From a virus: 46,036 nucleotides of DNA. Numbering within the stretch: position 1 is the first letter of the stretch; each line of letters starts with the position of its first letter. This document shows, piece by piece, positions 5,616-42,000 of the stretch. A program made the translations under genes and the position numbers. The notes below the pieces were generated by a model. The model saw nothing but the letters and a program-made list of their open reading frames with translations, did not search any database and was not told the origin of the DNA. Location: positions 1-46,036 of the IMG/VR virus record IMGVR_UViG_3300032132_000014, one strand, 5' to 3'.

Positions 5616-5624
5616 GAGGATAAG

Positions 5625-6440
5625 ATGACGAAAGAAACAAGCGTGGTAATTCAAGATGTCGATTTCACCCCGGGACAGATTACCACAATAAAAGAAACTG
5701 TTGCCAATGGCGCATCAGATAATGAGCTGAAACTATTTTTGTACCAGTGTAGTCGCACTGGTCTTGATCCATTAAGTAGGCAGATTCATTTCATTAAAAG
5801 AGGTAGTAAGGCAACGATTCAAACCGGGATTGACGGCTTTAGGGCCATTGCTGAACGAACAGGCCACTATGCCGGTAATGATGATTACCTTTTTAATAAC
5901 GATATGACGATGTATGAAATGTTGAAGGCAAAGATGGAACACCCGATTACAGCAACGGCGACTGTTTATAAGATCGTTGGTGGTGTTAGGGTTTCATTTT
6001 CTGCTACGGCGATATGGGATGCTTACTGTCCTAAAGGCAATGAATCGTTTATGTGGAAAAAGATGCCGTATCTAATGCTGGGCAAGTGTGCTGAAGCATT
6101 GGCCTTGCGTAAGGCTTTTCCAAACGATTTAAGCGGTGTCTATACCGATGATGAGATGGCACAGGCACAATCACCGGCAGAGGTTGTGGTAAATGCAACT
6201 AATGAAAAAACAAAAGCGCTGAAAGCAAAGGTTGAAAAGGCTAAGAACGGCAAGAAGGAATCGAACGATGATATAGCAATGACAGATGATCAGCGAAAAG
6301 AGATTGAAAAGTTGCTCGAGTCCGAGCAGTGCGCTGGTGTAAAAGACAATGTTGAATCGTGGTTGGATAAGGATATATTACATACTTCCAAGGCAGCTGA
6401 CAGTACAATCAATAAACTAAAAAAGATAATTACCGGATGA
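5625..6440 (+). CDS. bet: RecT/Bet-family single-strand annealing protein
   Basis: 271 residues. The segment L-F-L-Y-Q-C-x-R-T-G-L-D-P-L-x-R-Q-I and the following I-Q-T-G-I-D-G-F-R-x-I-A are the core of the Bet branch of phage annealing proteins. Residues about 195-225 are a Lys/Glu-rich linker, and the last 50 form a small helical C-terminal domain. It anneals complementary single strands produced by the nuclease encoded just upstream, which drives recombination and concatemer formation. A strong AGGAGG ribosome site precedes the start, and the stop overlaps the next gene by ATGA. Confidence 0.92.
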   Translation: MTKETSVVIQDVDFTPGQITTIKETVANGASDNELKLFLYQCSRTGLDPLSRQIHFIKRGSKATIQTGIDGFRAIAERTGHYAGNDDYLFNNDMTMYEMLKAKMEHPITATATVYKIVGGVRVSFSATAIWDAYCPKGNESFMWKKMPYLMLGKCAEALALRKAFPNDLSGVYTDDEMAQAQSPAEVVVNATNEKTKALKAKVEKAKNGKKESNDDIAMTDDQRKEIEKLLESEQCAGVKDNVESWLDKDILHTSKAADSTINKLKKIITG

Positions 6441-6925
6441 GATATTACGAGGTGTCAGTCAGAACTTGGGTTTCTGCTGACTTTAAGGCTTTAACGCAGG
6501 ATGGGCAGCTTCTTTGGCTGTTCTTCCTGTGTGGGCCTATTAAAACGCCTTTACCGGGGTTTTATAGTGTCGGGATGGGTGCTTGCTTAGATCATTTGCG
6601 TTGGGAGCCAGACAGATTCAAAAAAGCGTTCAAGGAACTACAGGACAGGGATATGTTGCAGTTTGACGATCAGAACAATGTCATCTATTTGCCGAACTGG
6701 GTAAAATACAATCGACCGCCATCAAATCCCAATGTGATGAAAAGCTGGTTGTCGTTGCTTGAGAATATTCCTGACTGTGATTTAAAGACCGTTTATGTTG
6801 ATAATCTTGTTACAATGGTTCGCCATCTGGACAAGTCAATACAGGGCATATTCGATAATTGGACAGCCTTATACGGTTTCTCCACCGATAACATTAAAGA
6901 TATGGATATTGATTACGATGTCTGA
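6437..6925 (+). CDS. Replication-initiator-like protein with winged-helix N-terminus
   Basis: 162 residues. The N-terminus (VRTWVSADFKALTQDGQLLWLFFL ... GFYSVGMGACLDHL) and the later Y-L-P-N-W-V-K-Y-N-R-P-x-N-P-N-V-M-K match the DNA-binding half of phage replication initiators found in many phages and prophages. In that group the protein binds the origin. The usual C-terminal half is absent here and the next gene overlaps by 8 bases, so initiation may be split over two proteins. Its start is coupled to RecT by ATGA. Confidence 0.75.
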   Translation: MRYYEVSVRTWVSADFKALTQDGQLLWLFFLCGPIKTPLPGFYSVGMGACLDHLRWEPDRFKKAFKELQDRDMLQFDDQNNVIYLPNWVKYNRPPSNPNVMKSWLSLLENIPDCDLKTVYVDNLVTMVRHLDKSIQGIFDNWTALYGFSTDNIKDMDIDYDV

Positions 6926-15057: not shown

Positions 15058-15951
15058 ATGGCTGATTCAAGCGGATTTTTTAACGAAGGTATTCTAAACT
15101 ACCTATTTGGGCAGCAACAAGCAAATGCTGTTGAGCAGCAACACGCATTGCAGCCGCTTCAGCAAAATCAGCCAGTTGAAGAACTGACTCCAGAATTTAA
15201 CCAATCTTCAAATATTATGGCTCAAAGAGATGCAGAATGGGAAAAACATAAAAAAAGAGAAAATCTGGACTTTCCAGACAGGTTAGATAAAGATGGAAGA
15301 CTTGTAAATTTAGAAGAATATCACGCCAAGCACAAATGGTCAAGAGATAAATTTTTTACTAATGCGCAAAGCTTTGATTGGTCGAAACAAAAAGTAAAAG
15401 ATCAACCGGAATGGCTGCAAAAAGAGCTTAAAGAAACAAGGCCGTTCCCTGAATTGCCAAAAGAAAAAGATAAAGACAGTTGGGGTGTAATGGAATGGCC
15501 TGAGTTTGTGCGAATGAAGGATGGTTCAACCAAAAAAGTCCATGTCGGTTCTTCTTTTTTTGATATAGACGAGAAAGAAAAAACAGAGGCTTGGAAAAAC
15601 AGAGATAAACTATTTAATTTTACTTATAAAAAAGATACAAAAAATTTTAAAAAAACAGACAAAGACAAGGAAAAAGATCAAGATTTAAAAGATTTTTCTA
15701 AATTTTTATATTTGGATGTTAACGACAAGGATGCTTGGTCTGAATATATAGAAGAAAAAAAAGATTGGCGCGGTCGAAAATACAATGACATAAAAAAAGA
15801 ATATGTAGAATTGTTTAATAACGCCTATAAATTTCAAGAAAAAGCAAATCAAGAAACCCATAAACCAGCTGTTCTTTACGATGGCTTGTATTATGAAAAC
15901 CCATTTTATGAAAAAGGTGAAATATTTAGGGAGAATATCTTCGGATGGTAG
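15058..15951 (+). CDS. Large charged hypothetical protein between terminase subunits
   Basis: 297 residues from the ATG at 15058, five bases after the previous stop; an in-frame ATG at 15037 lies inside the neighbour. The first 50 residues are Gln/Asn-rich (LFGQQQANAVEQQHALQ). The rest is Lys/Glu/Asp/Trp-rich with many charged runs and probably unfolded segments. It could be a virion or packaging accessory by position. I recognise no domain. Confidence 0.65.
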   Translation: MADSSGFFNEGILNYLFGQQQANAVEQQHALQPLQQNQPVEELTPEFNQSSNIMAQRDAEWEKHKKRENLDFPDRLDKDGRLVNLEEYHAKHKWSRDKFFTNAQSFDWSKQKVKDQPEWLQKELKETRPFPELPKEKDKDSWGVMEWPEFVRMKDGSTKKVHVGSSFFDIDEKEKTEAWKNRDKLFNFTYKKDTKNFKKTDKDKEKDQDLKDFSKFLYLDVNDKDAWSEYIEEKKDWRGRKYNDIKKEYVELFNNAYKFQEKANQETHKPAVLYDGLYYENPFYEKGEIFRENIFGW

Positions 15952-17570
15952 AAAACCAAACATCTGACCGCAAAAAAATACTGCAAAGAATGTATCTTGA
16001 TCCATTTTTCTTCGCTAAAGTACTTTTTGGGGACGAAAAAAACCATATGCACTACCATATGCGCTGCGATTCACCTAAATTTCACAGAGAAATTTTTGAC
16101 GATTTGCGTTCATTGGAAAAAGGCGACAAAATTGCAGTGGTTGCACCCAGAGGACACGCAAAAACTACCCTTGTTTCATTTATTTACCCGCTTCACCAGA
16201 TGCTTTTTGGCGAAGAAGACTTTATTCTCTTAATTTCTGAGTCAGAAACACAGTCTAAATATCTTTTAGAAGCAATTGGGAATGAACTCGAGTATAATAA
16301 AAAAGTTCACGAATATTTTGGCAATAGAATGGGCGAAACCTGGGGGAAAGAAGAAAAAGAAGTGATTACCGGCTTTGACGAAAATGGAAACCCGGCTGGA
16401 ATGTGTAAAGTCTTGATCCGTGGAACCGGACAAAAAGTTAGAGGTTTGAAATATGGCCCATATCGTCCTACATTAACTATCGTTGATGATGGCGAAGGCG
16501 AATCGAACACGATGACTGAGCTGTCAAGGGATAAATTCAAGCGATGGTTCAACGCAGCTGTAATTCCCGGTTCAACAGACGCAAAGCTGTGTTTCATTGG
16601 AACCATTGTTGACGATAATTCGTATTTAAACCGAATTGCAGGACGCAGATCATACAATAAGGCTGGAGAACGAATCGTAAAGGGATGGAAAACTCGATTC
16701 TATCAGGCAATTCCACAAAATGTGGACGAAGGGCATTTTACTGCATCCGGCAAAGAATATAAAAAAAACAAGCAAGTTCAAGTCTTGTGGAAGGAGCATA
16801 GATCGTATAAATGGCTAAAGGGAGAAAAAGACAGATTGTCTTCTGAGGGCCATGTCTCGTATTTCTATCAGGAGTATCAAAATATTCCGATGGATGATTC
16901 GTTTAGAGTCTTTAAAGAATCCGATATACAGTATTGGGACGGACACTATTCATACGATGGCGGTCAATCTTATGTTACTAAAATATCTGAAAAAGGCGAG
17001 GAAAGAGTTCCTGTTAACATTTTTGTGGGCGTTGACCCAGCTTCCTCGGAAAATAAAAAAGCTGACTACACTGTAATTATGGTTATTGCGGTCGATCCTG
17101 ATTTCAATATCTATGTGGTTGACTATTTTAGAGGTCAAGTTTCTCCTATGGACGGAGCAGATCGCATATTTGCAATGGCTGATATTTATAACCCGCGGGA
17201 TATAAAGATCGAAGAAACAGGTCATGTTATGCTTGCGGATTATATTCAAAGAAGAAGTAAAGAGTCTGGCAGGTTTTTGAATATTAATCCTAAAAAAGCG
17301 ATAAAAAATAAACATTACCGCATTAAACAGATGCAGCCGTATTTTGCGTCTAAAGCAATTTTTGTTAAGCAAACACATTACGATCTCATTGATGAACTTT
17401 TACAGTTTAAAGAAGTGGGTTCGTTTAAAAAAGATACGCTTGATGCCCTCCGCTGGGCGCTTGATGATATGTGGAAACCGAATTTGCAGTTTAAAGACAA
17501 TGCATGGGTCGAACCGGAAACAACTAAAATAAGGGCCGACTGGGAAACCGGTCAGGTATTCTATAGCTGA
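15945..17570 (+). CDS. Terminase large subunit (TerL)
   Basis: 541 residues. The Walker A motif is A-P-R-G-H-A-K-T-T at 67-75, Walker B is L-T-I-V-D181-D182-G-E-G-E, and a coupling motif I-G-T-I-V-D-D follows near 208-216. The nuclease half opens with V-G-V-D-P-A-S-S-x6-A-D-Y-T and ends with K-D-T-L-D-A-L-R-W-A, giving the Asp residues that bind metal. It pumps DNA into the prohead and cuts it. The start overlaps the upstream gene by 7 bases, and the stop overlaps the portal by one (TGATGG). Confidence 0.95.
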   Translation: MVENQTSDRKKILQRMYLDPFFFAKVLFGDEKNHMHYHMRCDSPKFHREIFDDLRSLEKGDKIAVVAPRGHAKTTLVSFIYPLHQMLFGEEDFILLISESETQSKYLLEAIGNELEYNKKVHEYFGNRMGETWGKEEKEVITGFDENGNPAGMCKVLIRGTGQKVRGLKYGPYRPTLTIVDDGEGESNTMTELSRDKFKRWFNAAVIPGSTDAKLCFIGTIVDDNSYLNRIAGRRSYNKAGERIVKGWKTRFYQAIPQNVDEGHFTASGKEYKKNKQVQVLWKEHRSYKWLKGEKDRLSSEGHVSYFYQEYQNIPMDDSFRVFKESDIQYWDGHYSYDGGQSYVTKISEKGEERVPVNIFVGVDPASSENKKADYTVIMVIAVDPDFNIYVVDYFRGQVSPMDGADRIFAMADIYNPRDIKIEETGHVMLADYIQRRSKESGRFLNINPKKAIKNKHYRIKQMQPYFASKAIFVKQTHYDLIDELLQFKEVGSFKKDTLDALRWALDDMWKPNLQFKDNAWVEPETTKIRADWETGQVFYS

Positions 17571-19582
17571 TGGCAATAAGCATAAAAAAACTCGACCTTC
17601 CAAAAATTGACCACACCGAAGTGTGGCACGAATATAAACTGTTTCAGTCTGCAGGCGAGCAGTGGCGCTATCAAATAGCTGAAGATGAAGATTTTTATCT
17701 CGGCAACCAGCTTACAGATACTCAAAAAGAATATCTCGAATCCGTGGGACAGCCGCCGGAGGCTAATAATAAAATTAGGCCGGCTGTTGAAACTGTGTTG
17801 GCAAACATAGCGGCGGCTTCCCCCGAATGGGATGTAAGGCCAATAGGTAAAACAGACAACGATATGGCTTTTGTGTGCAATCAGATGCTCGATTGGATAT
17901 GGCGGGAATCACAAGGAGATGTCCAATTTCGTAAGTCTTGCAAAGATTTCATTGTAAAAGGACTTACTTATTTTTATGTATATCCTGATTGGAACGCAGA
18001 CGGCGGTATGGGCGGCGTAAGGGTGCGTAGATTGTCGCCTGAATCAGTATTTGTCGATCCTAATACAATGCTTTCTGATTATTCCGACTCATCTTCAATG
18101 ATTTTTTCAGATTTGCATACAAAACAAGCACTAAAAGCTGTGTTTCCGCAATATGTAAAAGAAATTGACGAAGCAAGAGAAGATCACGAAGTTAATGAGC
18201 AGGGTTCTGGAAAATATTCGAGAGATGAAGTGTGGACAAGAGATGATGTGGGAAAAGATCATCAAGAAATGGTTCGCAAATATGTGCGTTTTAGCAAAGT
18301 CAATGTGCCAATGGTAATGATTACCGATATGAATACCGGTAAATCTCAAAAATTTAATCGCGATCAATATAAGGAAATGACTAAAGATCAGCGCTACAGC
18401 GAATTGGTAAAACAAAGTATGCTGATGGAAGAACTTGTGTATGAGAAACATATTAGGGAAGTTGCTCTTTTTGGCGATCAGATTATATATGATGAGGTTT
18501 TGCCAATTACCGAGTATCCAATTATTCCTGCCTGTAACGAACACACATCTACGCCGTATCCTTCCGGAGATGTGCGTCATTCGAAATCACCACAACGGAT
18601 GCTAAACAGAACAGAAGCGCTTTTAATTTCGCACACCAGCGCTACAACAAATTTTAAACTGCTTTATGAGGATGGCGCGATCGACCCGGGTGAAGTTAAT
18701 AAGTGGCATATTCCAAATGCGCTAATTCGCGTTAATCCGGGTGCTTTGAGGGAGCAGAAAATAAAAGAGTTCGCGCCACCCTCTGTTAGTAGCCAGCTAT
18801 ATACAGAAAAACAGCGATATGAGATTGACATTGAGCAGGTTTTTGGCGCATACAAATATCTTCAGGGTTCAGCATCTGATGCACCGGGATCTGTAGGTGA
18901 AGCGCAAATCGTTGATGAAGCAGTGGCAAGAAAGCAAAATTGGAAGATACTTCCAGTGTATGATATGATCACTAAAGCAGCACTGGTGGCGCAAGAGTGG
19001 ATGCCTCATGTTTACACAAGCCAAAGAACTTTAAGGGTAGTTAATCCTGACGGACAGGAAAAAGAATTAATGCTTAATGAACCGGTAATTGATGATAAAA
19101 CCGGAGCCGTACTGAAAATGTACGATATGCAGTCTGCAAAAGTAGATATAAAAGTTGTGATCGGCAGCACAAGGGCGAAATCACCCGCGGCTGATCTGCA
19201 AAGAGATTTGACGCTTTTAAATGCCGGCATATACGACAGAACACAGGTTATTATGAATATGCAGGGAGATATGGATAAAGCATCATTAATAGCACGGCAT
19301 AGCGAGATTCAGCAGCTTCGCGGAGCAGTTGAACAAATGGAAGAACAGATGAAACAGTTGCAGGGAGATATGCAAACACGCGAAAGAGAAATCTTCCACG
19401 CTAACATGAGAGCAGAAATTGCTGAAGCAACCAAGCCAGTACAACAGGCTTTAAGCAATGTAAAGGCGAACGCAAAACTTGAAGAAGCGAGACAGAGAGA
19501 TGCCTCGAAAAAGGTAAAAGAGGGTGCATCTTCTGTTCTAAACGCGATTAACTCTGAAACAGCGGCTCCAGCAATTGGATAA
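17570..19582 (+). CDS. Portal protein, P22 type
   Basis: 670 residues. Features of the P22-like portal family are visible: an N-terminal D-E-D-F-Y-L-G-x-Q-L-T, then E-A-N-N-K-I-R-P-A-V-E-T-V, Y-P-D-W-N near 145 and R-L-S-P-E-S-V-F-V-D-P-N. The C-terminal 80 residues form a long helical barrel-like coiled coil (IQQLRGAVEQMEEQMKQLQGD). It makes the dodecameric ring at one capsid vertex for DNA entry and exit and nucleates assembly. It is coupled to TerL by TGATG. Length is close to the 725 residues of P22 portal. Confidence 0.92.
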   Translation: MAISIKKLDLPKIDHTEVWHEYKLFQSAGEQWRYQIAEDEDFYLGNQLTDTQKEYLESVGQPPEANNKIRPAVETVLANIAAASPEWDVRPIGKTDNDMAFVCNQMLDWIWRESQGDVQFRKSCKDFIVKGLTYFYVYPDWNADGGMGGVRVRRLSPESVFVDPNTMLSDYSDSSSMIFSDLHTKQALKAVFPQYVKEIDEAREDHEVNEQGSGKYSRDEVWTRDDVGKDHQEMVRKYVRFSKVNVPMVMITDMNTGKSQKFNRDQYKEMTKDQRYSELVKQSMLMEELVYEKHIREVALFGDQIIYDEVLPITEYPIIPACNEHTSTPYPSGDVRHSKSPQRMLNRTEALLISHTSATTNFKLLYEDGAIDPGEVNKWHIPNALIRVNPGALREQKIKEFAPPSVSSQLYTEKQRYEIDIEQVFGAYKYLQGSASDAPGSVGEAQIVDEAVARKQNWKILPVYDMITKAALVAQEWMPHVYTSQRTLRVVNPDGQEKELMLNEPVIDDKTGAVLKMYDMQSAKVDIKVVIGSTRAKSPAADLQRDLTLLNAGIYDRTQVIMNMQGDMDKASLIARHSEIQQLRGAVEQMEEQMKQLQGDMQTREREIFHANMRAEIAEATKPVQQALSNVKANAKLEEARQRDASKKVKEGASSVLNAINSETAAPAIG

Positions 19583-19605: not shown

Positions 19606-20514
19606 ATGGCTAATGAACAAGCGCAGGTAACAACACCCCCGGCTGGAGATAACTCAAGTGGCGACTTTATGATGGACACATTAAGTGAGTTCAATAAAGG
19701 TCACAGTGGCTCTCCTGATGAAAATCAGGCTGGACAAGATGTATCTGCTGAAGATAGTGCTGACTCACAGCAACAAATGACTGCGCAGGAGAAGGAGAAC
19801 TGGCTAATTGATAACAAATTTCGGGATACCCCGGAAGGCCGTGAAAAATTGGCTGATTCATACAAACAACTGCAAAGTGAGAAGGATCGAATCACAAATC
19901 AAGCGGGAAGTGACTCCGATCGATACAAGAAATTGGATCAATTGGATACCTTTTTGCACGAGAATCCGGAAATTGTGGAGAAACTTCGTGGTGAGATAAG
20001 CAATGTAAGTCAAGAAACCAAACCGCCGGAAAAACCTGAAGATTATGATCCTTACGAGGAAAATATCGATGGTTCTTCCTCACAGAAGTACCGGCAGGAT
20101 TATGATAAGTATCTTGTAAGCGCGGGCGCGGATGAAGCTAAAAAGGAACTTGCCGGTTTCCGGCAGGAACTTGCGGCTAAAGAAGCAGTCCAGGCTGAAG
20201 AAGATACGCTTCGCAATCTTGGTCTTTCATCGACTGACATTACAGAGTACAGGGATTTTATTAACGATCCCAATATTGTTACTCCTGAAAATCTCGTCAA
20301 TATTTGGCGCTTTATGAGTGAGCAAAGAAAAAAGAAAACTGTACCGGATGAACTGTCCGCAAATCAACCTTCCGGCTCTGGAGGTCGAACAAGCCTTGCG
20401 AGTGTTAGTGGAGTTACACCTTCTCCGATAAACTCGCCAACTAAGGAAGTGGGAGATTTTATGGACGGCATAATGCAGTTTTCTAATAACTATACCCCTG
20501 ACAAAAGGAAATAA
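19606..20514 (+). CDS. Scaffolding protein
   Basis: 302 residues, highly acidic and polar, with few aromatic residues and a low-complexity start (TTPPAGDNSSG...SADSQQQ). A long helical middle (KEELAGFRQELAAKEAVQAEEDTL) and a basic C-terminal patch (MSEQRKKKTVPDE) are followed by a polar tail. Position between portal and capsid and this composition are those of phage scaffolds, which guide capsid assembly and then leave. An AACAGGAGC ribosome site precedes it. Confidence 0.85.
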   Translation: MANEQAQVTTPPAGDNSSGDFMMDTLSEFNKGHSGSPDENQAGQDVSAEDSADSQQQMTAQEKENWLIDNKFRDTPEGREKLADSYKQLQSEKDRITNQAGSDSDRYKKLDQLDTFLHENPEIVEKLRGEISNVSQETKPPEKPEDYDPYEENIDGSSSQKYRQDYDKYLVSAGADEAKKELAGFRQELAAKEAVQAEEDTLRNLGLSSTDITEYRDFINDPNIVTPENLVNIWRFMSEQRKKKTVPDELSANQPSGSGGRTSLASVSGVTPSPINSPTKEVGDFMDGIMQFSNNYTPDKRK

Positions 20515-20519
20515 TAATA

Positions 20520-22058
20520 ATGGCTACTACTTATGGAACCGGTACCGCAATTCAGTTCAGTGATGACACTCAACGGCAGGTACTTGAACTTGGAAGTAAA
20601 ATTCACTATTACAATCCCGATGTAACACCGATTCTTTCCATCTTTGGAATGAAAAGCTCTGTAACACCAGTGCCGATCTTCGAATGGATGGAAGATGAGT
20701 ATATGCTGAAGCGTACCATCAAACAGGATGTGTACGATACCGGGGCTAACTCGGCTACTACAGCTATCTCTGATACGGCATACGAAACAACGCAAGGGGC
20801 CAACAACGGCGCGTCTATCATTAACTTTGATAGACAAGCGCAGATGGAAGGCCTTGAAGCAGGCGCTGTGTACTCTGTTTCTTTTACAGAAACTTCCGGA
20901 ACTACGGCAACATTGCCTACAGCTAACACCCATGTATTGTGTGTTGCTGTTGGTGTGAATGTTGACTGTGATACCGCGAGTCACAAAGCTGCTCAATTCG
21001 TTGGATGTCATACAGGCACTGTTGGAAGTGATTCTGTATGGTATATCGAAGCTAACGCTGATGGAGTTGATCTGTTTACAGGCGACTCTGATGCTCATAT
21101 CAATCTAACATATGTTAACAATGCTGGCGCATTTTATGATGCCGGTAGTGCGACCGCTTATTATGGTCATAACATATCTCCGACTGGCGCTAATAGCGGT
21201 TTTGGTCTTCATAACCTTGCGGATGCAGATTACTTCATCCAAGAGAATGGAGTATCCGGAATTGCTGAAGGTGCCGCAGTTGGTGTAGAAACACGGAAAA
21301 AAGTTCGCAGACTAAAGAACTGCACACAGATTTTTCGTGAACCTTACACTATCACTGGTACTGCCGATGCTGCAAAGCATTACGGCGGATCGGAACTGGC
21401 TCGTCTTCAGGCACGAAAACTTGCAAAGATCAAGGTCGATTGCGAATACGCATTGATGACCAATGGTAATGTCAGTTTAGACGCTACATCCGAAAATCCA
21501 AAACGGACATTTGCCGGTTTTGGTATCGGAGGTTCAGCTCTGACAGGATTTGTCCAGACCAATGATGGTCGCGGCAATTCCAATTTGCAATTGGGTTATG
21601 CATCTGGAACGATGAGTGATATGGATGGTGTATGTGAATACATTTTCCATGACATGATTGATGGTTCAATGCGTAAAACAGTGTTTGCATCGAATAAGTG
21701 GCTAAGAAAACTCGCTTCAATGATTAGACTTGGAACCGGTTCTGGAACCGGAACCACGGCTTTTTATGATCTTGGCGATTCTTCACAGGCCGCTGGTGTT
21801 CGCGTGCGCCGATTCGTTGGCGCAGTTGGTGAATTAGACTTTATTCCTCACCCCCTCTTGAATGGTGTTTTAGAAGATTACGCTCTTGTGATCGACCCGG
21901 CGAACTTTGCGGTTCGTCCGTTGGCAGGTCGCGATATGCAGCTTCGTAAAGACATCGTTAAAGATGGTCGTGATGGACAAACTGATGAATGGATGATTGA
22001 GTTCGGCCCGGAAGCCCGGAATGAACAAACTCACGCTATTCTGAAGTTGTCAGCATAA
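20520..22058 (+). CDS. Major capsid protein, SU10/DUF5309-like
   Basis: 512 residues. After an N-terminal arm (residues 1-45) comes P-I-F-E-W-M-E-D-E-Y at about 53-62, the signature of the DUF5309/SU10-like HK97-fold capsid group. The C-terminal half has a G-A-V-G-E-L-D-F-I-P-H motif (about 430-440), then A-L-V-I-D-P-A-N-F-A-V-R-P, ending with the usual late-capsid R-K-D-I-V-K-D-G. Residues about 95-235 are a glycine/threonine-rich beta insertion that makes this protein longer than most members and may stand out on the capsid surface. An AAAAGGAA ribosome site precedes it. The N-terminal arm is echoed by the small gene at 22778. Confidence 0.85.
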   Translation: MATTYGTGTAIQFSDDTQRQVLELGSKIHYYNPDVTPILSIFGMKSSVTPVPIFEWMEDEYMLKRTIKQDVYDTGANSATTAISDTAYETTQGANNGASIINFDRQAQMEGLEAGAVYSVSFTETSGTTATLPTANTHVLCVAVGVNVDCDTASHKAAQFVGCHTGTVGSDSVWYIEANADGVDLFTGDSDAHINLTYVNNAGAFYDAGSATAYYGHNISPTGANSGFGLHNLADADYFIQENGVSGIAEGAAVGVETRKKVRRLKNCTQIFREPYTITGTADAAKHYGGSELARLQARKLAKIKVDCEYALMTNGNVSLDATSENPKRTFAGFGIGGSALTGFVQTNDGRGNSNLQLGYASGTMSDMDGVCEYIFHDMIDGSMRKTVFASNKWLRKLASMIRLGTGSGTGTTAFYDLGDSSQAAGVRVRRFVGAVGELDFIPHPLLNGVLEDYALVIDPANFAVRPLAGRDMQLRKDIVKDGRDGQTDEWMIEFGPEARNEQTHAILKLSA

Positions 22059-22080: not shown

Positions 22081-22110
22081 TGTTTGGGGGGCGGTTTTCC
22101 GCCCCCTGAA
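22081..22110 (+). terminator. Strong GC hairpin after the capsid gene
   Basis: The left arm 22081-22094 (ending GGGGGGCGG) pairs with 22099-22112 (starting CCGCCCCC) through a TTTT loop, a 14-bp stem with two G.T wobbles. An A-run, not a T-run, follows, so it may be a pause, an RNA-stability element or a partial terminator that lowers read-through from capsid into later genes. Confidence 0.5.
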
Positions 22111-22130
22111 CAAAAAAAAAGGAAAAAAAT

Positions 22131-22235
22131 ATGCCTAAAGTTGGCAAAAAACATTATGCTTATACCGAGAAAGGTAAAGCAGCTGCAAAACGCGCACGAA
22201 AGCGTTTGCGAAAAAAGAAAAAAAGTGATAAGTAA
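22131..22235 (+). CDS. 34-residue basic peptide (MPKVG-type)
   Basis: The ATG at 22131 follows AAAAAAGGAAAAAAAT. The product opens M-P-K-V-G-K-K-H-Y-A-Y-T-E-K-G-K-A-A-A-K and continues into a Lys/Arg run. Peptides with this opening stand near capsid genes in many marine podophages. The likely role is a virion-bound basic peptide; function is unproven. The stop overlaps the next start (TAATG). Confidence 0.7.
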   Translation: MPKVGKKHYAYTEKGKAAAKRARKRLRKKKKSDK

Positions 22236-22559: not shown

Positions 22560-22699
22560 TATGGTTTTATGCACATTGTGTGATTGCGATTGTGATTGTA
22601 ATTGCGGATGCAAAAGGAACGCTGGAGCCAACAGTAAAATGTTGGGAGAAAAATTTGGGAATACCAGTTCCAGAGGAAGTGAATGAAAGCAATCAATGA
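22556..22699 (+). CDS. 47-residue peptide with hydrophobic N-terminus
   Basis: ATGA overlap with the previous gene. The first 17 residues are hydrophobic (MIWFYAHCVIAIVIVIA), then D-A-K-G-T-L-E-P, a Cys-Trp and an acidic tail. The start resembles a signal or anchor peptide followed by a small exported domain. Function unknown. Confidence 0.5.
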   Translation: MIWFYAHCVIAIVIVIADAKGTLEPTVKCWEKNLGIPVPEEVNESNQ

Positions 22700-22785
22700 T
22701 GGATGTATTTATATTTATATTTGTTATGGCAATAGTTGGAATGATTGTTATGAAAGTAAGCGAAAATAAATATTTTAATGGCTGA
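22696..22785 (+). CDS. 29-residue membrane peptide
   Basis: It begins by ATGA overlap (a second ATG follows at once) and is nearly all hydrophobic (VFIFIFVMAIVGMIVM), with a short charged end. It overlaps the next start by 8 bases. Translation is supported only by the couplings. Confidence 0.4.
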   Translation: MMDVFIFIFVMAIVGMIVMKVSENKYFNG

Positions 22786-22900
22786 TACTACTTACGGAAC
22801 TGGAGCAACTGTGTTCTCTGATGGGAGTCAAAGAACTGTTAGCGGTTTATCCAAAATGAAAAAAAAGCGTAAAAAACGCAAAAAGAAGAATAAAAAATAA
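22778..22900 (+). CDS. Capsid-N-terminus mimic fused to a poly-basic tail
   Basis: 40 residues. Residues 1-25 read MADTTYGTGATVFSDGSQRT then VSGLSK, against MATTYGTGTAIQFSDDTQRQ then VLELGSK in the major capsid protein. The shared T-T-Y-G-T-G, F-S-D, Q-R, V, L, S-K keep order and spacing apart from a single-residue gap at two places. The last 14 residues are almost all Lys and Arg. DNA of the two starts has diverged, mostly at third positions, so it is an old, selected duplicate and not an assembly artefact. It could co-assemble with capsid through the arm and carry a DNA-binding tail into the head. The stop overlaps the adaptor start (TAATG). Confidence 0.75.
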   Translation: MADTTYGTGATVFSDGSQRTVSGLSKMKKKRKKRKKKNKK

Positions 22901-23796
22901 TGAGATATAGAGAAGCATACGAACTTATTGATGCCGCTGTAAATAAAGCGGATATTGGCTATCCGGTGACGGAAACGCTAAAAGCGATGTTTTTCGATCA
23001 GGAAGTGGAGAACATTGGATTGCGCTTGGTAAAAAAATCAATCCGCGCAAGTTTTTCAGTTTCGGGGAAAGAGTATGTTATAACCGATTCAAAACGATCA
23101 AACAAGATTTATAAAGTTGAACTGGAAGATAGTACAGGCTCAACCAGGGCAGTGCCTTATATTGACGATAGTGTTATGTTTTTCAGCACGGATGAAGATA
23201 CGATACCGAGTATCGGCTATACATTGAGAACAGACGCAACATCAGGAAGCCTTACTGCCGGGACAAGAGCCAATCCCTGCTCAATTACCTCTGCTTCCCA
23301 CGGACTTGACTCTGGGGATTATGCAATATTCAGTGAAGTGGTTGGGCTTGACCTTACAGCAACAGGTGTCAATGCGCTTAACGGCAAAAGACTTGAAGTT
23401 ACAGTAACGGATGCAAATACTTTTACTGTAGCCGTAAATACCAGTTCAGGATATGGGGCAAATGCCACAGCCGGGAAATGGCAGGAAGACACAGTAAAAA
23501 TTGTTTTTAATAAGACTCCTTCATCAGACAGTTCATCTGTCCGGGTGTTTTATTATGCAAGACCAGAACCAAAAACAGATAATACGAGTCGCGTTGATCT
23601 GCCAGCCCAGCTCATACCCGCAGCAATACACCGGGCAGCGGCTCAAATCATTAACCTTGACGGCAATTTACAGCTTGGATCAGGGCATCGTGGGTTGGCA
23701 AAGGCTTTGGAAGCAGAATATATGGGAACTGACAGAGCGAGAGAAGCGATGCCCGATCTTGTTCCTCAACCACTACAAGATTTTGTGAGTAAATAA
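22900..23796 (+). CDS. Head-tail adaptor protein with inserted beta module
   Basis: 298 residues. The N-terminal helical part (YREAYELIDAAVNKADIGYPVTETLKAMFFDQ) and the C-terminal helical part (LPAQLIPAAIHRAAAQIINLDGN) bracket a beta module at about 115-195 that opens S-I-T-S-A-S-H-G-L and includes L-N-G-K-R-L-E-V-T-V-T-D-A-N-T-F-T-V. Its place right after capsid genes and before the tail genes matches gp4-like adaptors of P22-type podophages. Such proteins fit under the portal ring. Coupled on both sides by TAATG. Confidence 0.65.
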   Translation: MRYREAYELIDAAVNKADIGYPVTETLKAMFFDQEVENIGLRLVKKSIRASFSVSGKEYVITDSKRSNKIYKVELEDSTGSTRAVPYIDDSVMFFSTDEDTIPSIGYTLRTDATSGSLTAGTRANPCSITSASHGLDSGDYAIFSEVVGLDLTATGVNALNGKRLEVTVTDANTFTVAVNTSSGYGANATAGKWQEDTVKIVFNKTPSSDSSSVRVFYYARPEPKTDNTSRVDLPAQLIPAAIHRAAAQIINLDGNLQLGSGHRGLAKALEAEYMGTDRAREAMPDLVPQPLQDFVSK

Positions 23797-29908: not shown

Positions 29909-30990
29909 TGGCTGTAGATATTCAAGCACCACAATACCCAGCACCGATCACACCAAGCTTTGCATCCTTTTCAGCGCGTCAGCGAATGGAGATTGAGGAT
30001 GCGTTGGCTGCAGAGCAAGCGCAAAAAGAACGGCAGCTGGCTGTAGGTAGGGCTGGATTAAAGTTTGGATATGAATATGACAAGATGTTGCGCGGCTATA
30101 TGGAAGCTAAGTTTGCTAATCCTGAATTGACATATTGGGATTATGTTAGAAAACCTGCTGTTGGCGGTGCCTTTAGAGCTGAAGGCCGTAAAAAGATTGC
30201 AGAACATATTAAAGCAGGTGGGGATATAGATGAACTTCCCGGCATGACATTTAGTGAAAGACATAAAGCCGGGTTAAAGGGTTTGTTTGAAAAGAAAGCA
30301 AAAGAACCAAAACTTCCGGATGTACCAACAGAGTATCCCGCAGGACATCCAAGGGCAAGAGCAGAATCAGCTCTTAATGTTGAAAAGGCAATTGCAGAAT
30401 CTGATGCTCTTAAAAAGGCTGATGTTATGCCAGCTGCCAATGTGCCTCTTGAAGACTTAGACGCTTCAAAATTATTAAGCAAATCTGCTGAAATGAAGAA
30501 AGCAACAGGTTCAGCGGTGGAGACAATTGGAAAACTTATAGAAACACCTAAACCTGTAGCTGCGGTTGGCCCTCAAACCAGTATTGGTGAGATAACGCAG
30601 GCGAAGAATTTGCCCCATGGTACTGATGTCTCTAAATTAGACCCAACATCGGCTGCTGGGTTAGAGACTGGCGCTGGCGAAGCTACTAAAGCCGGATTAA
30701 AAGAAACATTAGGTAAAGGCGCAGCTGGACTTGGGTATGGAGCCTCTGTTGTATCAGGAGCGCAAAGATTGGCAGAAGGCAAAACTACGGAAGAAAAAAT
30801 TGGTGGTGGACTGCAAGTTGCTGGAGGCGCAGCAGGATTGGTTGCGATGACTAATTTCTGGAATCCTGTTGGTTGGGCGGCAGCAATACCAGCAGCATTA
30901 AGTATTGGTGGCGGTCTTATGGGTGGTGGTAGTGATCCTCTTGCAAGGACTCCACTTGGAAGATATAGAAGAAGGGTTGGAATAGGATAA
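29908..30990 (+). CDS. Probable internal virion (ejection) protein
   Basis: 360 residues. The first half is charged and helical (RQRMEIEDALAAEQAQKERQ). The C-terminal 80 residues turn hydrophobic and Gly/Ala-rich (GLQVAGGAAGLVAM and GWAAAIPAALSIGGGLMGGG), as in phage ejection proteins that insert in the host envelope. Its place between nozzle and the giant protein supports that role. The stop overlaps the next start (TAATG). Confidence 0.6.
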   Translation: MAVDIQAPQYPAPITPSFASFSARQRMEIEDALAAEQAQKERQLAVGRAGLKFGYEYDKMLRGYMEAKFANPELTYWDYVRKPAVGGAFRAEGRKKIAEHIKAGGDIDELPGMTFSERHKAGLKGLFEKKAKEPKLPDVPTEYPAGHPRARAESALNVEKAIAESDALKKADVMPAANVPLEDLDASKLLSKSAEMKKATGSAVETIGKLIETPKPVAAVGPQTSIGEITQAKNLPHGTDVSKLDPTSAAGLETGAGEATKAGLKETLGKGAAGLGYGASVVSGAQRLAEGKTTEEKIGGGLQVAGGAAGLVAMTNFWNPVGWAAAIPAALSIGGGLMGGGSDPLARTPLGRYRRRVGIG

Positions 30991-31505
30991 TGCCACAGCC
31001 AATGATACAGATAACAAAAGCAACGCCTGAAGATATGTATGATGTGGCTGATATGATCGTGCGTTCTTTTGGCGAAGAAACTACGGCGAACATAAAAGAA
31101 CTTGGAGATGCGAAGAAGAAGGGATCGCGTTTTATGTTTATCGCACGATACATTGATTCTCTAAAAAATAGAGAACCTTATATGTGTTATGTTGCAAAAA
31201 AGGATGATGAAGTAATTGGTGCTTCGGCTGGATATACACATTCTTATCAGTGGGGATACCAGTTATGGGGTACAGAAGATTTTTGGTATGTTAAAAAAGA
31301 GCATAGAAGCGGTAGGACAGGACTGTTATTGTATAACAAACTGATGGATTGGTTTAAAGAAATGGATGTTGATAAGGTACATATGATGCACTACACTTGG
31401 AATCCGAAAGTAGGAGATTTCTATAAACGCAAAGGTTTTGTTCCCTTTGAACTGTCCTATGTGAAAAATATGAAAAAGGAAGAAAATGGCACATCAAGTA
31501 GGTAA
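30990..31505 (+). CDS. GNAT-family N-acetyltransferase-like protein
   Basis: 171 residues. The GNAT fold shows in T-P-E-D-M-Y-D-V-A-D-M-I near the start, the strands M-C-Y-V-A and V-I-G-A-S-A-G-Y, and the acetyl-CoA-binding R-S-G-R-T-G followed by L-L-L-Y-N-K-L-M-D-W-F. The end F-Y-K-R-K-G-F-V-P also fits. GNAT-like genes occur among ejection genes of T7-like podophages, so it may modify a virion or host protein or serve a structural role. It is coupled to its upstream neighbour. Confidence 0.85.
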   Translation: MPQPMIQITKATPEDMYDVADMIVRSFGEETTANIKELGDAKKKGSRFMFIARYIDSLKNREPYMCYVAKKDDEVIGASAGYTHSYQWGYQLWGTEDFWYVKKEHRSGRTGLLLYNKLMDWFKEMDVDKVHMMHYTWNPKVGDFYKRKGFVPFELSYVKNMKKEENGTSSR

Positions 31506-33071: not shown

Positions 33072-36000
33072 ATGCCACAGCAAAATTTGCAATGGATATA
33101 TGACTCTGCAATAAAAAATGGGTTGCAAATCGGTGAGTATGATCAATTCACCGATGCGATGAAGGATGAAAATAATCGCAAATGGTTGTATGATGGGTTG
33201 TCAAAAAAGGATGTAGAACTTGGCGACTACAATCAATTTAATGAGCAGCTTGAATCATTAAGTCCCACCGATCAATTATATGGCCCGCCTGATCCAGCTC
33301 CAGTGGATTCAGTTGATTACGATGCTGAAAATATTTTATCACATGAAATATCAAGTCCTGATTCATCTGTAGAAAAAATAACACAAGCAGGATTTTTTGG
33401 TAGTAGTGCTGAAGCAGGAAAAGATGTTGTCCATTCCTCTGACTATAACATACCGCAGATCAATGATAGAGTTTGGGGAGATATATTTAAGGAAAAGTAT
33501 AATAAAAACCTAAATGATGCTCTGCCAGAGGAGGCTATAGATTTTGCTATCAATAGAATACTATTCAACAGTGAGGGGGATAGTCCATTAAAAATACAGA
33601 ACTGGGAAGCATATAATAATGGCTCTTGGGCGAAGTATAAGGACTACACAAACGAAGACTATGTAGCAGTAATGGGTGCTGATCCGAAACACCTTGCTAT
33701 GATAGATTCTCTTGCAGGGCCGGAAGCATCTACAATCAAAGCAGTATTTGCTGCTGAATCAGATTTTGATTCTTCTAAAATTAATACCAATTATATGCCG
33801 AGTAAGGAAAGCGGTATAGAATCAGATGGCAGCGCTGCAAAGCGTGAAGTTGGAATCTACGGACTTGAAAAAGTGGATGTTGCTGGCGAACCTAAATATA
33901 CAATCTCACAAGCACCGGAAGAATCAATATCAGATAGATTCCTTAATCGTTTAGGCAATATGTGGAAGTATCGCGATCTAAGTATTTCAGGCCCATCTAA
34001 AGAAGCAACAGGCGCTCGCGCGACAGTAGAATTTAATAATATGCAGTTTATGAAGGACAGGGCTGCAAAGATCGGTATATATCACCATCCTCGATCACCT
34101 AAATTTGACAAGGAAGTTCGGGAGCAAGTCGCGTGGAATACTATGAGTGCGCCAATGTTATTTACAGGGCCGCAAACCGATCCGATAGGAAGAATGTTTG
34201 GAGCTGCTGCGGTTAAGGGAAGATTCGGAATAGGTGAACTGGGTAAGGCTGAATATGATGAGAGGATGCGCAGGATGGCGAATCCAAGAGAGCATTATAG
34301 AAGAAGATTAAAAGAGATCGGGTTAGATGTAACTGACGGTGATTTTATGGCTTCAGCTTGGACAAACTCTTTATCAGGGATGGCATGGAGCATTGCAACC
34401 GGCAATACACCTGATCTGACCTTTTATCAACCCAGCGACCAGGAGCAGATTGCAGCAGGGATTATGGGACTGATGATGCCATTGGATGCTATATCTTTTG
34501 GTGTTGGTAGTACTATAGCAAAGGGTGCTGTAAAAACAGCCGGAATGTTTACAAGCAAACAATTATTAAAATTAGGTGTTAGTTCTTCGACTGTTAATCG
34601 CGGAATAGCTTTGGGAAAGTCAGGTATTGCACAGGGCATGATCGGTATGGGTGGTGCTTTAGGTACATATGAAGGTCTTGGCAGTCCTTTAAGGCAATGG
34701 ACACAATTAGGTTATATAGACGGACGACAGTGGGCAAAAGATGTGGTAGCTCATACTGCGCTTGGTATGGTTACAGGCGCTCTTGGCGAAGGCGGAATGG
34801 CCTTTGGTAAGTATGTAAGACCTGTAGGCAGGGGATCGAAACTTATACCGGAAGGCTCAAAGTTTGTTGGTGAAGTAATTGGATTCGGCGGATTTTCACC
34901 AATGATAGTTGAGGGAGAAGCACCAGAGTGGCACGATTTTTACGATGCTGCTGCCTTCCTGATCGGAATGAAACTGGCAGCGCCAATGCAGCAGATATAT
35001 GGAAAAGGTTCATATGACTATGTGAAAACTGGCGTATCTAAGATGCTGCGGATGGAGTATTTGCGTAATGGCGGAGATTTTGGCAAAGCACAGGAAACAG
35101 TAAAGAATGGAATTACATCAGCCGTTGAACTTGCAATGGAAGGCAACATTGCTTGGGAGAAAGGCGCGCCATCTGGAGTATCAACAGGAGGAAAGGGTGT
35201 TATATTAGGAGAAAAGCCCAATTTGTCGGTCGATGAGAAGGGCGTTGCGATCATATACGATGAAAAAGGCAATCGTATTCCATTTAAACCTGCTCTTACT
35301 CAAAAAGAATTAGTTTTAACAGGTGAAATCCAAAAGCCAAGGGTTGATTCTGAGGGCAAACCGATCATTGGCCCTGATGGTAAGCCTGAGATGGTTACTG
35401 TTGCGGAAGGTAGAGGTCAGGTTCCTGAAAAAGCACCGGGTGAAACGATGGTTCAAGAAGCGCCTGAAGGCTCTGGTGTTGTATATACTGAACCAGTAGT
35501 TGAAAGAGGCAAGGTTGTTAAAGAAGGTGTCTATACTGCAGTCTATGGGGGAAAAAATGTAGGCGAATTTGCGACAAGGGCAGAGGCTAATGCTAAAATA
35601 GAAGGCCTTACTAAAGAATCAGTACCCCCAGTACCAGTCAGTAAGGCTGTGGCAGAACAGCTGGAAGTACCGGCTCACCTTAGAAAAGAAGCACTGCAAG
35701 GACAATCGGATGCCGTTTTAGATACAATGTATAAACAGGCAAAAACGCCAAGAGAAAAACAGATCATTCGTGTTGAGCAGGAACGCAGGAAACTGACTGC
35801 ACCGAAAGAAGAAGATGTAAGCTCATTAGTTCAAGAGCGTGGTGCATTGCAAGTTGAGCAAAATCGTTTATTTGAAGAATTACAGGCATTGCCGGAAGGT
35901 TCACCTGAATATATAAGGAAAGAACAGCAAATCGTTGAGATGGGTGATCGTATGCAGACGCTGGACAATCAGATCGCTGGTAAAGTTGTTCCAGTTGAGG

Positions 36001-39000
36001 AAGCTAAAGTTCCAAAAGCAGAAGAACCGCCTAAAAAAAAGCCTTCTAAAGAAGAACCACCGACTGAAGTTCCGCCAGTAGAACCGACTAAGCCTCCAAA
36101 AAAAGAACCGCCTTCAAAGAAAGAATTAGACGCAGCTGGAGAAAAACTTGATGTATTATTTAATAAAGAAACTGAATTAATAAAGGAAGCGTTTGGCAAG
36201 GATTCAGATGTAGAGGACATTATTATTAATGAAGATGTTGGTAAAGGAATTGATGTTGCTGGTGAAACATATCATCGACAAAGATGGGAGATAAATCCAG
36301 AGATCAAAGGGGAATTAACCAAATCTCAAAGAGATAAGGCGCAAAAATTAGCTGATGAAGCAAATGCTATCGAGAGAAAATTGTTTGGGCCTGAAGCTAA
36401 AGCACCAGTAGAAAAAGCGCCTGAAACTAAAGAGCCTGAACCAGCTAAAGAAGAACTGCAAAGTAAGTTAGATAAGTATGCTCCTGATTTGGAAGCAGAA
36501 TTAAATCAACTAATTGAAAAAAATAAAAATGCACCATTTCTTACTGAATCGGATACTAAAGAATTACAAGAACGGTTAGATGCTTCAAAGGGTTTTGCTG
36601 AAGTCGTTGAAGCAAGGTTGGAAAAGTTTACCGATGAGGCTTTGTCAAAAGCAAGTGAAAAGACTAAAGAAATGTGGGAAGCTGATGTTAATCGACTTAT
36701 TAAGCATAACGCGGAAGTAACTCTTTTAGAGGCTGAGTTAGCAAAGAGAGGTGGTGGTACTGCTGAAGCACCAGAGGAGTCCGGTGTTACTCTAAGTGAG
36801 TTTATAAAAGCCAAAACAAAGGTTGTATATCGAACTTTTTTTGAAGCACCTCGTGTAGGGTCTTACAATTATAGAAGATTAGAGGATGGAACTTGGTTAA
36901 GCGAAAGGCTGGCTGATCCGACACCAGTTAAAAGTAAATCCTTAATTAAAAAGTTAGAGGCTAAGTTTGAAGCAGATATGGCGGCAGGGAAGACTGATCC
37001 GCTTGAAACCCGTTATCCAGAATTTGATAAAGCAGAAGCGCCAGCTGAACCGCCTGCACCTAAAAAGATTAAGCCTAAAAAATGGGTTGACATCACCGGC
37101 TCTAAGGGAAACAAGCTGGGTGAGTTTGATCAATTACAAGAAGGAGGCGGATATTTTAATTATGGTATAAGAAAAAACAAAAAAGGCGGAGATTTTGAAT
37201 ATAAAATTGTAGAAAAAAAAGCAGATGAATATGGAGTGCGACATAAGACTGTGGAGGGAGAAGTGTTTGATACTTACGAGAAAGCCTTCAATGCGCTGGC
37301 TGATCGTATAGCAAGGCTTGATAGCGGTATGGACAGAAGTAAACTTGTTCCTGAATTACAAAAAGCCGTGTTGGATATAGAAGCTACATTTGATCATCCT
37401 GCTTTAAGGAAAAATAGAAAGGAAGACTTGGTTGATAAATTTTCTAAGAGAGAATTAATAGATATTGCAGACGAAACAATACATCAGCCTGGAGTAAAAG
37501 GATTTCGTTATCAGAGCCTCGGTTCTTTGCCAAAACCAAAGCTTGTTGATGCTATGTTATCGTGGCAAAAACAAGGTGATGTAGCGCGAAAGAAAACTGA
37601 TCCAGAGCTTGCTAAATACACTGAGCCTGAAGCTCCAGCACCAGTTGGAAGGCCGAGTAGCGAGATTATTGGGGAAAAAATAAATAAGGCCAATCTTGAT
37701 ATAGAACAAGCTGCTCTTAAAACAAAATATCCGGATGAGTATAGCGCTCTCACTACGGAAAGAAAATCCGAAGGGGTCGATGGATTGTATCAAGAACTTT
37801 ATGGTAATAAAGAAAAAATAGATGCTATAGAAAAAGATTTAAAAGATCGCAAAATAAGAACACATCGAAGGAATGACTCAAGTTTAGATGTAAATCTTGT
37901 TGATTTGTCAATGAAAAGTGGGTCTTGGAAAGATGTTAGCCACAGGTCGCCTAAACAGTTACTTATTTCTTTAGCGAAAGGAGAGCAAATAGTAGAGAAA
38001 GCTCCTCCTAAAGCACCAGCAAAAGAACCAAAGCCGTTAACAGACAAAGAAAGAGAAAATATAGAGGAAAAGCTTTTAGGGGAATTTGGGTATAAACGAG
38101 GAGAAGTTGTAAATGAAGAAAGGCTTTTAGAGCAGCCAGCGGACTTTGAAAAAGCAAGTCAGCTTCTTTCCTTGGGTGAGGTTGCGTATTACGCTGAGAA
38201 ACCTCTGACTGACACGGTAGTTGCTTGGTCAGACGGAGTTCGTTTAGGCGAATTTGGAAGCAAAGCAGAAGCTCATAAAGTTCTTAATAAATATGTTAAA
38301 AAACACCATAAGGGAATAAGGGGTATAGTAGGCCCTGATGTTCCAAAACCTTTGTTCGAAGTGGGAGAAAAAGTTAAGCTATCGGAAATTCTCGGTAAAA
38401 AATGGGGCGCTGGTGGTGAAACTGTTAAAATTTTATCGAATAATAAAGTAAGAGTAGGAAACGAATGGAAATACGAAGTACAAACTAAGGGAGGTGAAAG
38501 ATTTTGGACAAATGAGCTTGGGATTATGTCTCGACCAGCAAGATCAGCGAAGCCTGTTAGTGAAAATTTAGCTAAAGCAAAAGTAAGTGGGGATAAGAAA
38601 AAAGTTGAAGCGATTGAGGATGCTGAAAAAGGCAAGGTCAGGGAAGATGAGCCGCTGGCTGTGCTTGAATTACTCGCTGAAAGAGCAAAGATTAATGCCA
38701 AAATTATAGCAGAGTTTGGAAAGAAACGACCAAACGAAGATAAGATTCGGGATTTAGCGGTCGAAAGATCAGCTTTAACCGAAGAAATAGGAAAAGCGAA
38801 GCTCGGAAAACCTCGAACTGGCGATCAGGTTACACTTACACCGACTAAAAAGACTAAAAAGGGCGAGAAAAAGGTTGTAAAGAAACCTATTGATGATCCT
38901 GCAATGCGTGGCAAGATTGAATTGCAAAACATTTTTGAGAGTATAAGAGATCAAGTAGAGATTCAGATTGCAGAAAGCGGAGTTACTGGCACTGAGTATG

Positions 39001-42000
39001 TCGGAAAGCCGCTTGAGATAGATTGGGATAGGGTTGTAGCTCCAGAGAATAGCAGATTTGTAGATGCGCCGATGGAGGGTAAGCCGGGATGGTTTCGTTA
39101 TGACCTTGAAATTAACCTGCCAAATGTAAATGGGACATATAGTGTAAATGTTCCTGAAAGTGTAATTATCAAGGGCGGAAAAATTGATTTAAAGACAGGA
39201 GGGGGCGCGTTTTTTGGAAAATTTAGTAAGGCTAATATAACGAAAGCATTTAAAAATCCAACAGTCCCAACACTTCGCGGAGCAAGTTTACGCGGCCCAG
39301 AAAATGCACCTCAATTTACTGCTCCTGCGCGTAAATCACTTGCCCAGCAGGATCATAAAGCACTGAATACGGCGCTTAGTGGCTATAAGAAGCGCTTAAA
39401 AAAGTATCAGGCATATAAGAAGCCTACAGGGGATGTTCAGCGCTCTATTGGCGAATTAAAAGAAGCAATTAAAATTGCGGAAGATTTAGTAAAGGTACAA
39501 AAAGAGGCCGATCGGCTGGGTGGCGCGGTGGTTGGTATGGATTTCATACCCGGAACTACTGCTTTCTTTAATGCAATGCGCCGGTGGAAACGATCTAAAC
39601 TGCCGATTTCAGATCGTAAAAAGCTGGACAGTCTTATAAAGCGCTCTAATAAACTACATAATAAATGGGTAGCTGAAGGTCGGGTTGACAGGGAAATGGA
39701 AGGTCGCCTTGGGAAATTAAGCGATGAGATCGTGGCGCTGGAGAATAAGGTAAAAAATCAAATTCCATCTGAAACAGAGATGGTTAAGATTAGTCAGGAT
39801 ATTAAATGGCCTTCGAGGACAACGGATCTCCGCCGGACACATAAGAAACAGCGCGATTTGACGAAGAAGCTGGAGGAAGTTGGCGTTGAAAGTGTTGATG
39901 AGAACTTTCGCGATATAAAACTTCAAGTAACAAAAGGTCGTTCAGACTCTCAAAAAGATTTTACCAAAGAAGAAATTGTATTATATGAAGAAATTTTAGA
40001 TAGAATGACTAATAATGGCGGCTATCTTGACGATATGCCGGTTATGTTGACAGAGTTATCGAAGAATGAGAATTTATGGGCAAATAAGGTTCATCAGACA
40101 TTTGGTTTTGCTTTTTCAAATATATCAAGAATAAAAGCTATGGGTGCAGCGGGTAGAGAATTAGCGCAGAAAGCCACAGATTTCGTGATCAGGCAGACGC
40201 AATTAACTGGTGATGGTGAAGCGACATTATATAGAATCGGTAAATTAATCGGCAGAAAGAATATGAAATACTTTTCGGCTGCTGTTGATCCGTATCTGGC
40301 AGAAGGAGTGGATTTTAAGGGTAAGAACAAGGAAAAGTTTTTAAATGATCCTAAGACAAAAGAAGCAGTACGATTATGGAGGGAATATACAGATCGGCTG
40401 CACGCTTTAAGAGTTGAGCATGACACTTATGTTGTAAAAGATATTGATGGTAAAAAAGTAAAAGTTGACGCAGCAGACACATATATTGACAATTGGTTGA
40501 GGCGGCAGTTAAAAGTTGATGTTTATAAAGAGCTTGTTGGAGGAGGAAAAAAGTATGAAAGAGAAATTGAACGATTGATGAAAAGAGGACAGGCAAAAAC
40601 AAGAGCAGAAGCAGAGCAAGCTATTGGAGCGTGGCTGCGGAGATCGCCGTATTATGAACAGGAAGTAAGATATGGATCAGCGGACAGGCCTCGGCTATTG
40701 GAGCTTTCGCCTGAATTGTATGAAACAGACTTCACGATAATCGCGCCCGGGATCACACGCCGTTATGCGACATTTCTTGCCGGCGCAGAGGTTTTTACTC
40801 AGGATATGAAGGTTAGGGATCAGCTGGTGGGCCGCATAGGTACAACAGTTGGGGGAAAGAACTCAATAGAAGCGTCTGAAATAATGCAGACTATAATTGA
40901 AGGATCAAGACACCAGCCGCCGTGGGGAGCTATGGGATCGACAAGATTTGTTAGCGCCCTCCATCTTACTTCCCCAAGAACATTCTATAATAATATTATG
41001 TATTCGCATAACACTGATTATCCTGCTATGGGAACAAGGGCAGTAGTAAAAGGATGGTTTAATTTTTTAAGACATCCTATAGCGTCATTAATGACTGCAA
41101 GAGAAGCAGGTCAGCTCGGTGTTGGAGTACGCGAGATCGAAGCAATTACTTTTGAAAAAGGACTGAAAAGATGGCTGGGCTGGTTTCCCGGAGGTATTAT
41201 ACCTTCTGAATTGGGAAATCGCGGGAGAGCAACAATTTCAGCGGGTACAGCTGCTGAAATGTATCTAAGATATATGAAAAATGATATATCACCTGAAATA
41301 ATGCAGATGCTTCCAAGGAGATTACATACAAAATTAAAGGCAAAAACAGGAAGATTGTTTTTTCAAGATTTTGGAGGGTTTAGTAATAAGCAAATAGATA
41401 AAATTGTGGAGCGCGGGTATTTGACAGATGCCGAGATTAAAAGAATGGAAACTTTCCTACCATCAGTTACGCAGGGATCGACACACCCATACTTTATGCC
41501 GGAAATGTTCTCAGGAAAACTTTCATTCCTGGGGGGTTTGCAAAAGATGTCTTACCGCGCCACTGCCGGTGTATATAAAGCGGCGTTTAAACCAGCAATG
41601 CACGCAGATTTTGGCCCAATGGCAAGATGGATCGCTGCTGGAGCTATTGGTGGTGAACTATCATACTATATTAATTATGCTTTATTCGGATGGGAACATC
41701 CGGAAGGTGGTGATATTGATAATTTTATTGAACATCTGCACGGAGATGCTGCAAATAAAGATAAGATAAAAGCAAGTTTGCTTCGGGTAGGCCGCAATAT
41801 GTTACGAGCTTCAGGCTTTGGTATAATGTCTGATTGGTTTAAGGGGTACGGATTTGCACCGGTCATATTTGACGCATATAAGAATTTTCATAATGAGATA
41901 GGTTATGTATTAACAAACAAAAAGAGTTTTGGGCAATTAGGTAACGATCTGGGCGAAGCGCAGGTTGCCATATATCGTGATTGGGTGCGGCTTCAAAGAG

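Follow-up and report, generated by a model that had tools for sequence, protein, structure and literature searches.

A 40-residue protein of SU10-type phages that shares the N-terminal arm of the major capsid protein and carries a basic tail

We describe a real, conserved gene under purifying selection that encodes a 40-residue peptide and sits among the head genes of a virus, between the major capsid protein (MCP) gene and an adaptor-like gene. The first 25 residues of the peptide are related to the N-terminal arm of the MCP, and the remainder is strongly basic. We rank as most likely, with a probability of roughly 0.5, that the product is a virion or procapsid micro-protein that would dock at the site of the MCP arm and show a basic helix to the DNA or to the acidic scaffold. 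Our analysis covers a viral record 46,036 bases long, hereafter the window, with 1,266 open reading frames (ORFs). The head module is of the short-tailed-phage type, with the scaffold and the MCP encoded by separate genes and a run of small ORFs between the MCP and the 40-residue ORF. The features considered are as follows.

15945..17570: terminase
17570..19582: P22-like portal
19606..20514, plus strand: probable scaffolding protein preceding the MCP, 302 residues, very acidic (net charge -23), a putative function
20520..22058, plus strand: MCP of SU10 type (Pfam PF17236 SU10_MCP, E 4.5e-35)
20520..20597, plus strand: MCP N-terminal arm, residues 1-26, matching the copy in the peptide (hhalign); the MCP starts MATTYGTGTAIQFSDDTQRQVLELGSKIHYYNP
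22081..22112, plus strand: strong RNA hairpin shortly downstream of the MCP stop (MFE -27.7 kcal/mol, z -4.6)
22131..22235, plus strand: second small basic protein MPKVGKKHYAYTEKGKAAAKRARKRLRKKKKSDK (MPKVGKKHYAYTEKGKAAAKRARK..), without a capsid arm (phrog_33179, E 3e-7)
22696..22785, plus strand: small ORF from the ORF list (MMDVFIFIFVMAIVGMIVMKV..), sharing 8 nt with the start of the peptide ORF
22778..22900, plus strand: ORF of the 40-residue peptide MADTTYGTGATVFSDGSQRTVSGLSKMKKKRKKRKKKNKK, between the MCP and the adaptor-like gene
22778..22852, plus strand: capsid-arm copy, peptide residues 1-25 (hhalign against the MCP alignment)
22853..22900, plus strand: basic Lys/Arg tail, peptide residues 26-40, and stop codon (from the sequence; K/R-rich in every relative)
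22900..23796, plus strand: adaptor-like gene (SU10_adaptor PF24175, E 3e-5, below the curated cut-off)

Relatives of the window MCP in the PDB are VP1 (9in6), SU10 (7z45) and Pa223 (9ny2). Across the related loci, the net charge of the scaffold ranges from -15 to -41 and its C-terminal F/W-x-GIM motif is conserved. As read directly in the window, the stop codon of the peptide and the start codon of the adaptor-like gene share 1 nt (TAATG). Elsewhere in the record, a GNAT acetyltransferase (30990..31505) lies within the late structural module, which is closed by a 3160-residue ORF (33072..42554) that has no Pfam match.

The relation between the peptide and the MCP arm was confirmed by several searches. 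With the MCP arm (first 35 residues) as query against all 1,266 window ORFs, the peptide (E=0.0016) was outscored only by the MCP itself, and the ORF ranked below it had an E value of 9. A profile of the MCP arm run against the 65,646 ORFs of all loci gave up to 24.5 bits for the peptides and at most 8.5 bits for any ORF unrelated to their family. Profile-profile alignment with hhalign matched peptide residues 1-25 with MCP residues 1-26 (probability 95, E=3e-8, 56% identity), upholding the alignment of the two starts in the original prediction, which had extended the MCP part to residue 27. The switch that it had described to about 14 Lys/Arg/Asn residues was also seen, as the tail comprises 14 residues, nearly all K, R or N. 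A model made from eight peptides and applied to 29 complete virus records matched only peptides and the MCP start (MCP E values from 4e-5 to 0.02), the latter being the sole match in records without the peptide. In both proteins the likeness begins at the N terminus. The peptide arm conserves T-Y-G-T-G-A-T-x-F-S-D-G-S-x-R among 25 distinct relatives, and the MCP arm is kept in 52/52 aligned MCPs with invariant Y5, G6, G8, F13 and R19. Both arms share fixed Y, G and F residues and an almost fixed R, and D is frequent; at the turn position the peptide holds D-G (or N-G), and the MCP is variable there.

A search with the MCP yielded 80 related loci on contigs of uncultivated viruses, and later scans added further loci. 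The peptide is known from metagenome contigs alone, all of its carriers being uncultivated; on our own reading of their context, rather than from any tool result, the relatives appear to be of marine origin. In the clade of the window, the peptide accompanies every distinct MCP that has a legible downstream region (44 of 44), always between the MCP and the adaptor, and the contigs of this clade that lack it are contigs that were cut off. When its presence or absence was placed on an MCP tree built with the arm columns left out, the label changed only twice. Unlike the peptide, other small genes of the MCP-adaptor gap come and go among relatives. In loci L026, L027, L038, L046, L048 and L078, a gene of 158-221 residues (MAESYKDSLRI../MSNSYKDALRI..) is inserted between the MCP and the peptide; no PHROGs match was found for the two examples checked.

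Selection acts on the protein. Among close relatives, pN/pS was about 0.25 (0.26 for the peptide arm and 0.23 for the tail), compared with 0.16 for the MCP arm, and reading the peptide arm in frame +1 gave 1.45 over all pairs. At larger distance the tail reached 0.87, although the register of the K/R run is uncertain there, and its sequence is free to change while staying basic. Synonymous change in the peptide arm is near saturation while the amino-acid sequence is conserved. This conservation and the pN/pS values rule out a non-coding or chance ORF. They bear out the selection first suspected from the window, and the check then proposed, a search of relatives for a small gene between capsid and adaptor with a match of about 25 residues to the capsid start, found that gene present.

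The two arms do not change together. Among 26 divergent pairs, peptides matched their own MCP at 8.65 of 15 positions and foreign MCPs at 8.67 of 15 (permutation p=0.69), a test of low power given that the arm is nearly invariant, and the MCP changes TSYG, YGAG, YGSG and FSSGEQR are not mirrored in the peptide. The co-variation of the two starts that the original prediction had anticipated was therefore not borne out, and the idea of a copy that tracks its own capsid is rejected on this comparison (p=0.69, 26 pairs). At identical residues, peptide and MCP codons agreed in 28% of cases within a genome and in 30% between genomes. The low value within genomes agrees with the third-position differences already noticed between the two DNA copies. 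Since the two proportions are alike, a recent copying event or gene conversion is ruled out, and the split of the copies must be ancient, each having been under its own constraint. The arm is thus an old, constrained motif. It is probably a truncated MCP duplicate, and we infer that copying went from the MCP to the peptide because the MCP arm is spread more widely.

In neighbouring capsid clades, a second branch of the family is found upstream of terL instead of after the MCP (for example, MRKLYSTGQAKFTDGSSRLKTTLGKVRKWKKKKKKVSIKKLKS and MPDIDYGTGSIEYTDGTSRMETTLKKYKKMKKKKKKTKKGHKSK). Its members have the same arm-plus-basic-tail layout, but most have lost the YGTG part and share mainly F-T-D-G-S-S-R. 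The existence of this branch indicates that the family is older than the clade of the window and that its role is independent of the adaptor neighbourhood. Still other MCP clades (e.g., ..SVTPLLTLMGR.., in records of 37-43 kb) have the MCP arm and lack the peptide, and small basic ORFs without an arm fill the same slot. Relatives lacking the gene had been named beforehand as evidence against the proposal; they exist in these other clades and not in the window's own, and the expectation that the gene would be universal fails for the wider capsid family.

How the peptide might work can be outlined from these observations. In an ancestor of marine SU10-capsid phages, the 5' end of the MCP gene would have been copied and joined to a basic tail. 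AlphaFold2 (AF2) modelling of the peptide family predicted a beta-hairpin (10-12, 18-20) with an SDGS turn, followed by a helix at 21-39 in the basic region, at a mean pLDDT of 84; for peptides that are short and charged, such single-chain models are weak evidence. The arm half, for which this hairpin with its S-D-G-S turn is predicted, retains the residues that the MCP arm cannot change (Y-G-x-G, F and R). The peptide therefore probably takes the docking position of an MCP arm while the procapsid assembles, either on an adjacent capsid subunit or on the scaffold. From there its K/R helix might point inward and bind packaged DNA or the acidic scaffold. Placement in the shell, binding of nucleic acid by the tail and action as a decoy, as put forward in the original prediction, are hypothetical roles. 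In the AF2 model of the window MCP, residues 1-39 had pLDDT below 50, too weak to place the arm. A more specific version, which we offer tentatively, is a new type of head component: a detached copy of the MCP N-terminal arm that would fill arm-binding sites of the shell, such as vacant ones at the vertices or near the portal, and tether a protamine-like basic helix to the inside of the shell, where it would help to pack the genome. The arm-plus-tail layout also persists at a distance from the adaptor, as the branch upstream of terL shows. Against the docking reading stand the missing co-variation with the own MCP, which close mimicry of a changing site might show, the loss of YGTG in most terL-upstream peptides and the incomplete occurrence in the wider capsid family.

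Next in rank after docking on the shell, and distinctly less probable, is a regulator of assembly directed at the scaffold: the arm would mimic the face of the MCP arm that binds scaffold, the basic tail would hold the acidic scaffold, and the peptide would compete with the MCP or aid the exit of the scaffold, in which case it need not stay in the virion. The strongly negative scaffolds with their conserved C-terminal motif fit such a role, as does the binding of the P22 and 80alpha coat N-arms by the scaffold C-terminus (PMC9965877, PMC5644958). However, in P22 the basic residues of the scaffold bind an acidic N-arm, whereas the MCP arm here is near neutral. We consider it unlikely that the same short motif arose in both proteins through one shared binding partner, without common origin. 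Codon agreement no higher within than between genomes would suit such convergence, and so would the branch that shares mainly F-T-D-G-S-S-R, but the likeness starts at residue 1 and continues collinearly for about 25 residues with a single gap, and the two genes are neighbours; the function would in any case hardly differ from docking on the shell.

Ribosomes are slowed by polybasic chains, and in many relatives the peptide stop overlaps the adaptor ATG (TAATG or ATGA), as expected of a leader-type short ORF whose translation and basic codons would set ribosome flow into the adaptor gene while its product does little. This is improbable, because the amino-acid sequence of the arm is conserved, and not charge alone, with synonymous changes nearly saturated. 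The overlap is also missing where another gene separates the two and in the terL-upstream branch, which weakens an adaptor leader ORF as the common function. Least probable of all, and by our estimate very improbable, is a basic peptide directed at the host, binding nucleoid or ribosome, with the arm as a remnant: the composition of the tail would allow it and arm-less basic ORFs sit in the same gap in other clades, but arm and tail are conserved to a similar degree and the gene sits among head genes.

The gap that holds the peptide has other elements. The small ORF at 22696..22785, through its overlap with the peptide start, is likely translationally coupled to it. Proteins of phrog_33179 resemble the peptide in lying in the same gap after the MCP, in size and in Lys/Arg content; unlike the peptide, they have no capsid arm and are restricted to some of the relatives. 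In other clades the gap contains additional Lys-rich ORFs (MASKIMKKMAKK.., MPYGKGTYGKKKGRP..), and together with the phrog_33179 protein these suggest that phages may repeatedly require a small basic protein encoded after the MCP. The hairpin after the MCP stop is of the type GGGGGGCGG-UUUU-CCGCCCCC and precedes an A-run instead of a T-run; similar GC-rich inverted repeats occur before the peptide in relatives.

These results suggest a very small accessory component that would attach to the phage head through an arm taken from the shell protein. Its family consists of short proteins that gene callers readily overlook, and it is strictly retained within its clade. Should the peptide dock in the manner of a capsid arm, it would be a minimal tag, derived from the shell protein itself, for positioning cargo on the shell; it would set basic charge against the packaged DNA with the MCP unchanged, and it would offer a simple handle on the contacts of SU10-type capsid N-arms.

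We know of no described accessory head protein that consists of a capsid arm only, and no description of such a protein was found in the open-access literature searched. The window peptide had no match in Pfam (including PF17236), PHROGs, NCBIfam or the PDB, and the best PHROGs E value among 25 peptide relatives was 0.057. With respect to PF17236, the peptide has the N-terminal arm sequence of this MCP group (residues 1-25, at the hhalign E value of 3e-8) and lacks the HK97 fold with its P and A domains and E-loop, its 40 residues matching in the arm only. A tblastn search of cultured phages found no peptide, short 40-residue queries and the low-complexity filter making such a search insensitive, and a scan of genome contigs gave none that could be confirmed. 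Searching five GenBank SU10-type relatives with their own arms revealed no small copy of the arm; the only copy was a full MCP paralogue, in Cronobacter phage A24 (L255). In this phage, tandem full-length MCP paralogues (4818-5756 and 5837-6922) are almost identical over their first ~36 residues, and the second has an extra C-terminal region. MCP duplication thus occurs in SU10-type phages.

Judged against known systems, we rate the peptide as a putative MCP-derived or tag-directed accessory head protein rather than as an established internal protein of T4 type. The N-arms of the P22 and 80alpha coat proteins lie inside and bind scaffold in procapsids (PMC9965877, PMC5644958); in P22, the scaffold anchors to the arm on the inside and the arm shifts into the neighbouring subunit on maturation (PMC9965877), and the N-arm of phi12 CP runs along the inner shell (PMC8569155). 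The scaffolds P22 gp8 and 80alpha SP act on this coat N-arm region inside the procapsid, but they bind the arm whereas the peptide resembles it, and no sequence relation between either of them and the peptide was found. A coat-arm-binding scaffold is a longer protein with a helical C-terminal coat-binding motif, unlike the peptide with its 40 strongly basic residues; the acidic 302-residue gene product before the MCP fits that role. SaPIbov5 Ccm co-assembles with CP (PMC8569155). Like the putative origin of the peptide, Ccm and the second MCP of A24, which directly follows the first, are MCP-derived, but both are full-length HK97-fold proteins, whereas the peptide keeps only about 25 arm residues. 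T4 internal proteins enter proheads through an N-terminal tag of ~10 residues that is removed by the head protease (PMC7697877). IPI-III are small head-associated proteins with such a short N-terminal tag (the capsid targeting sequence), and the peptide, presumably head-associated itself, resembles them in this. To our knowledge, the T4 tag does not reproduce the start of the T4 capsid protein, whereas the tag of the peptide matches its MCP.
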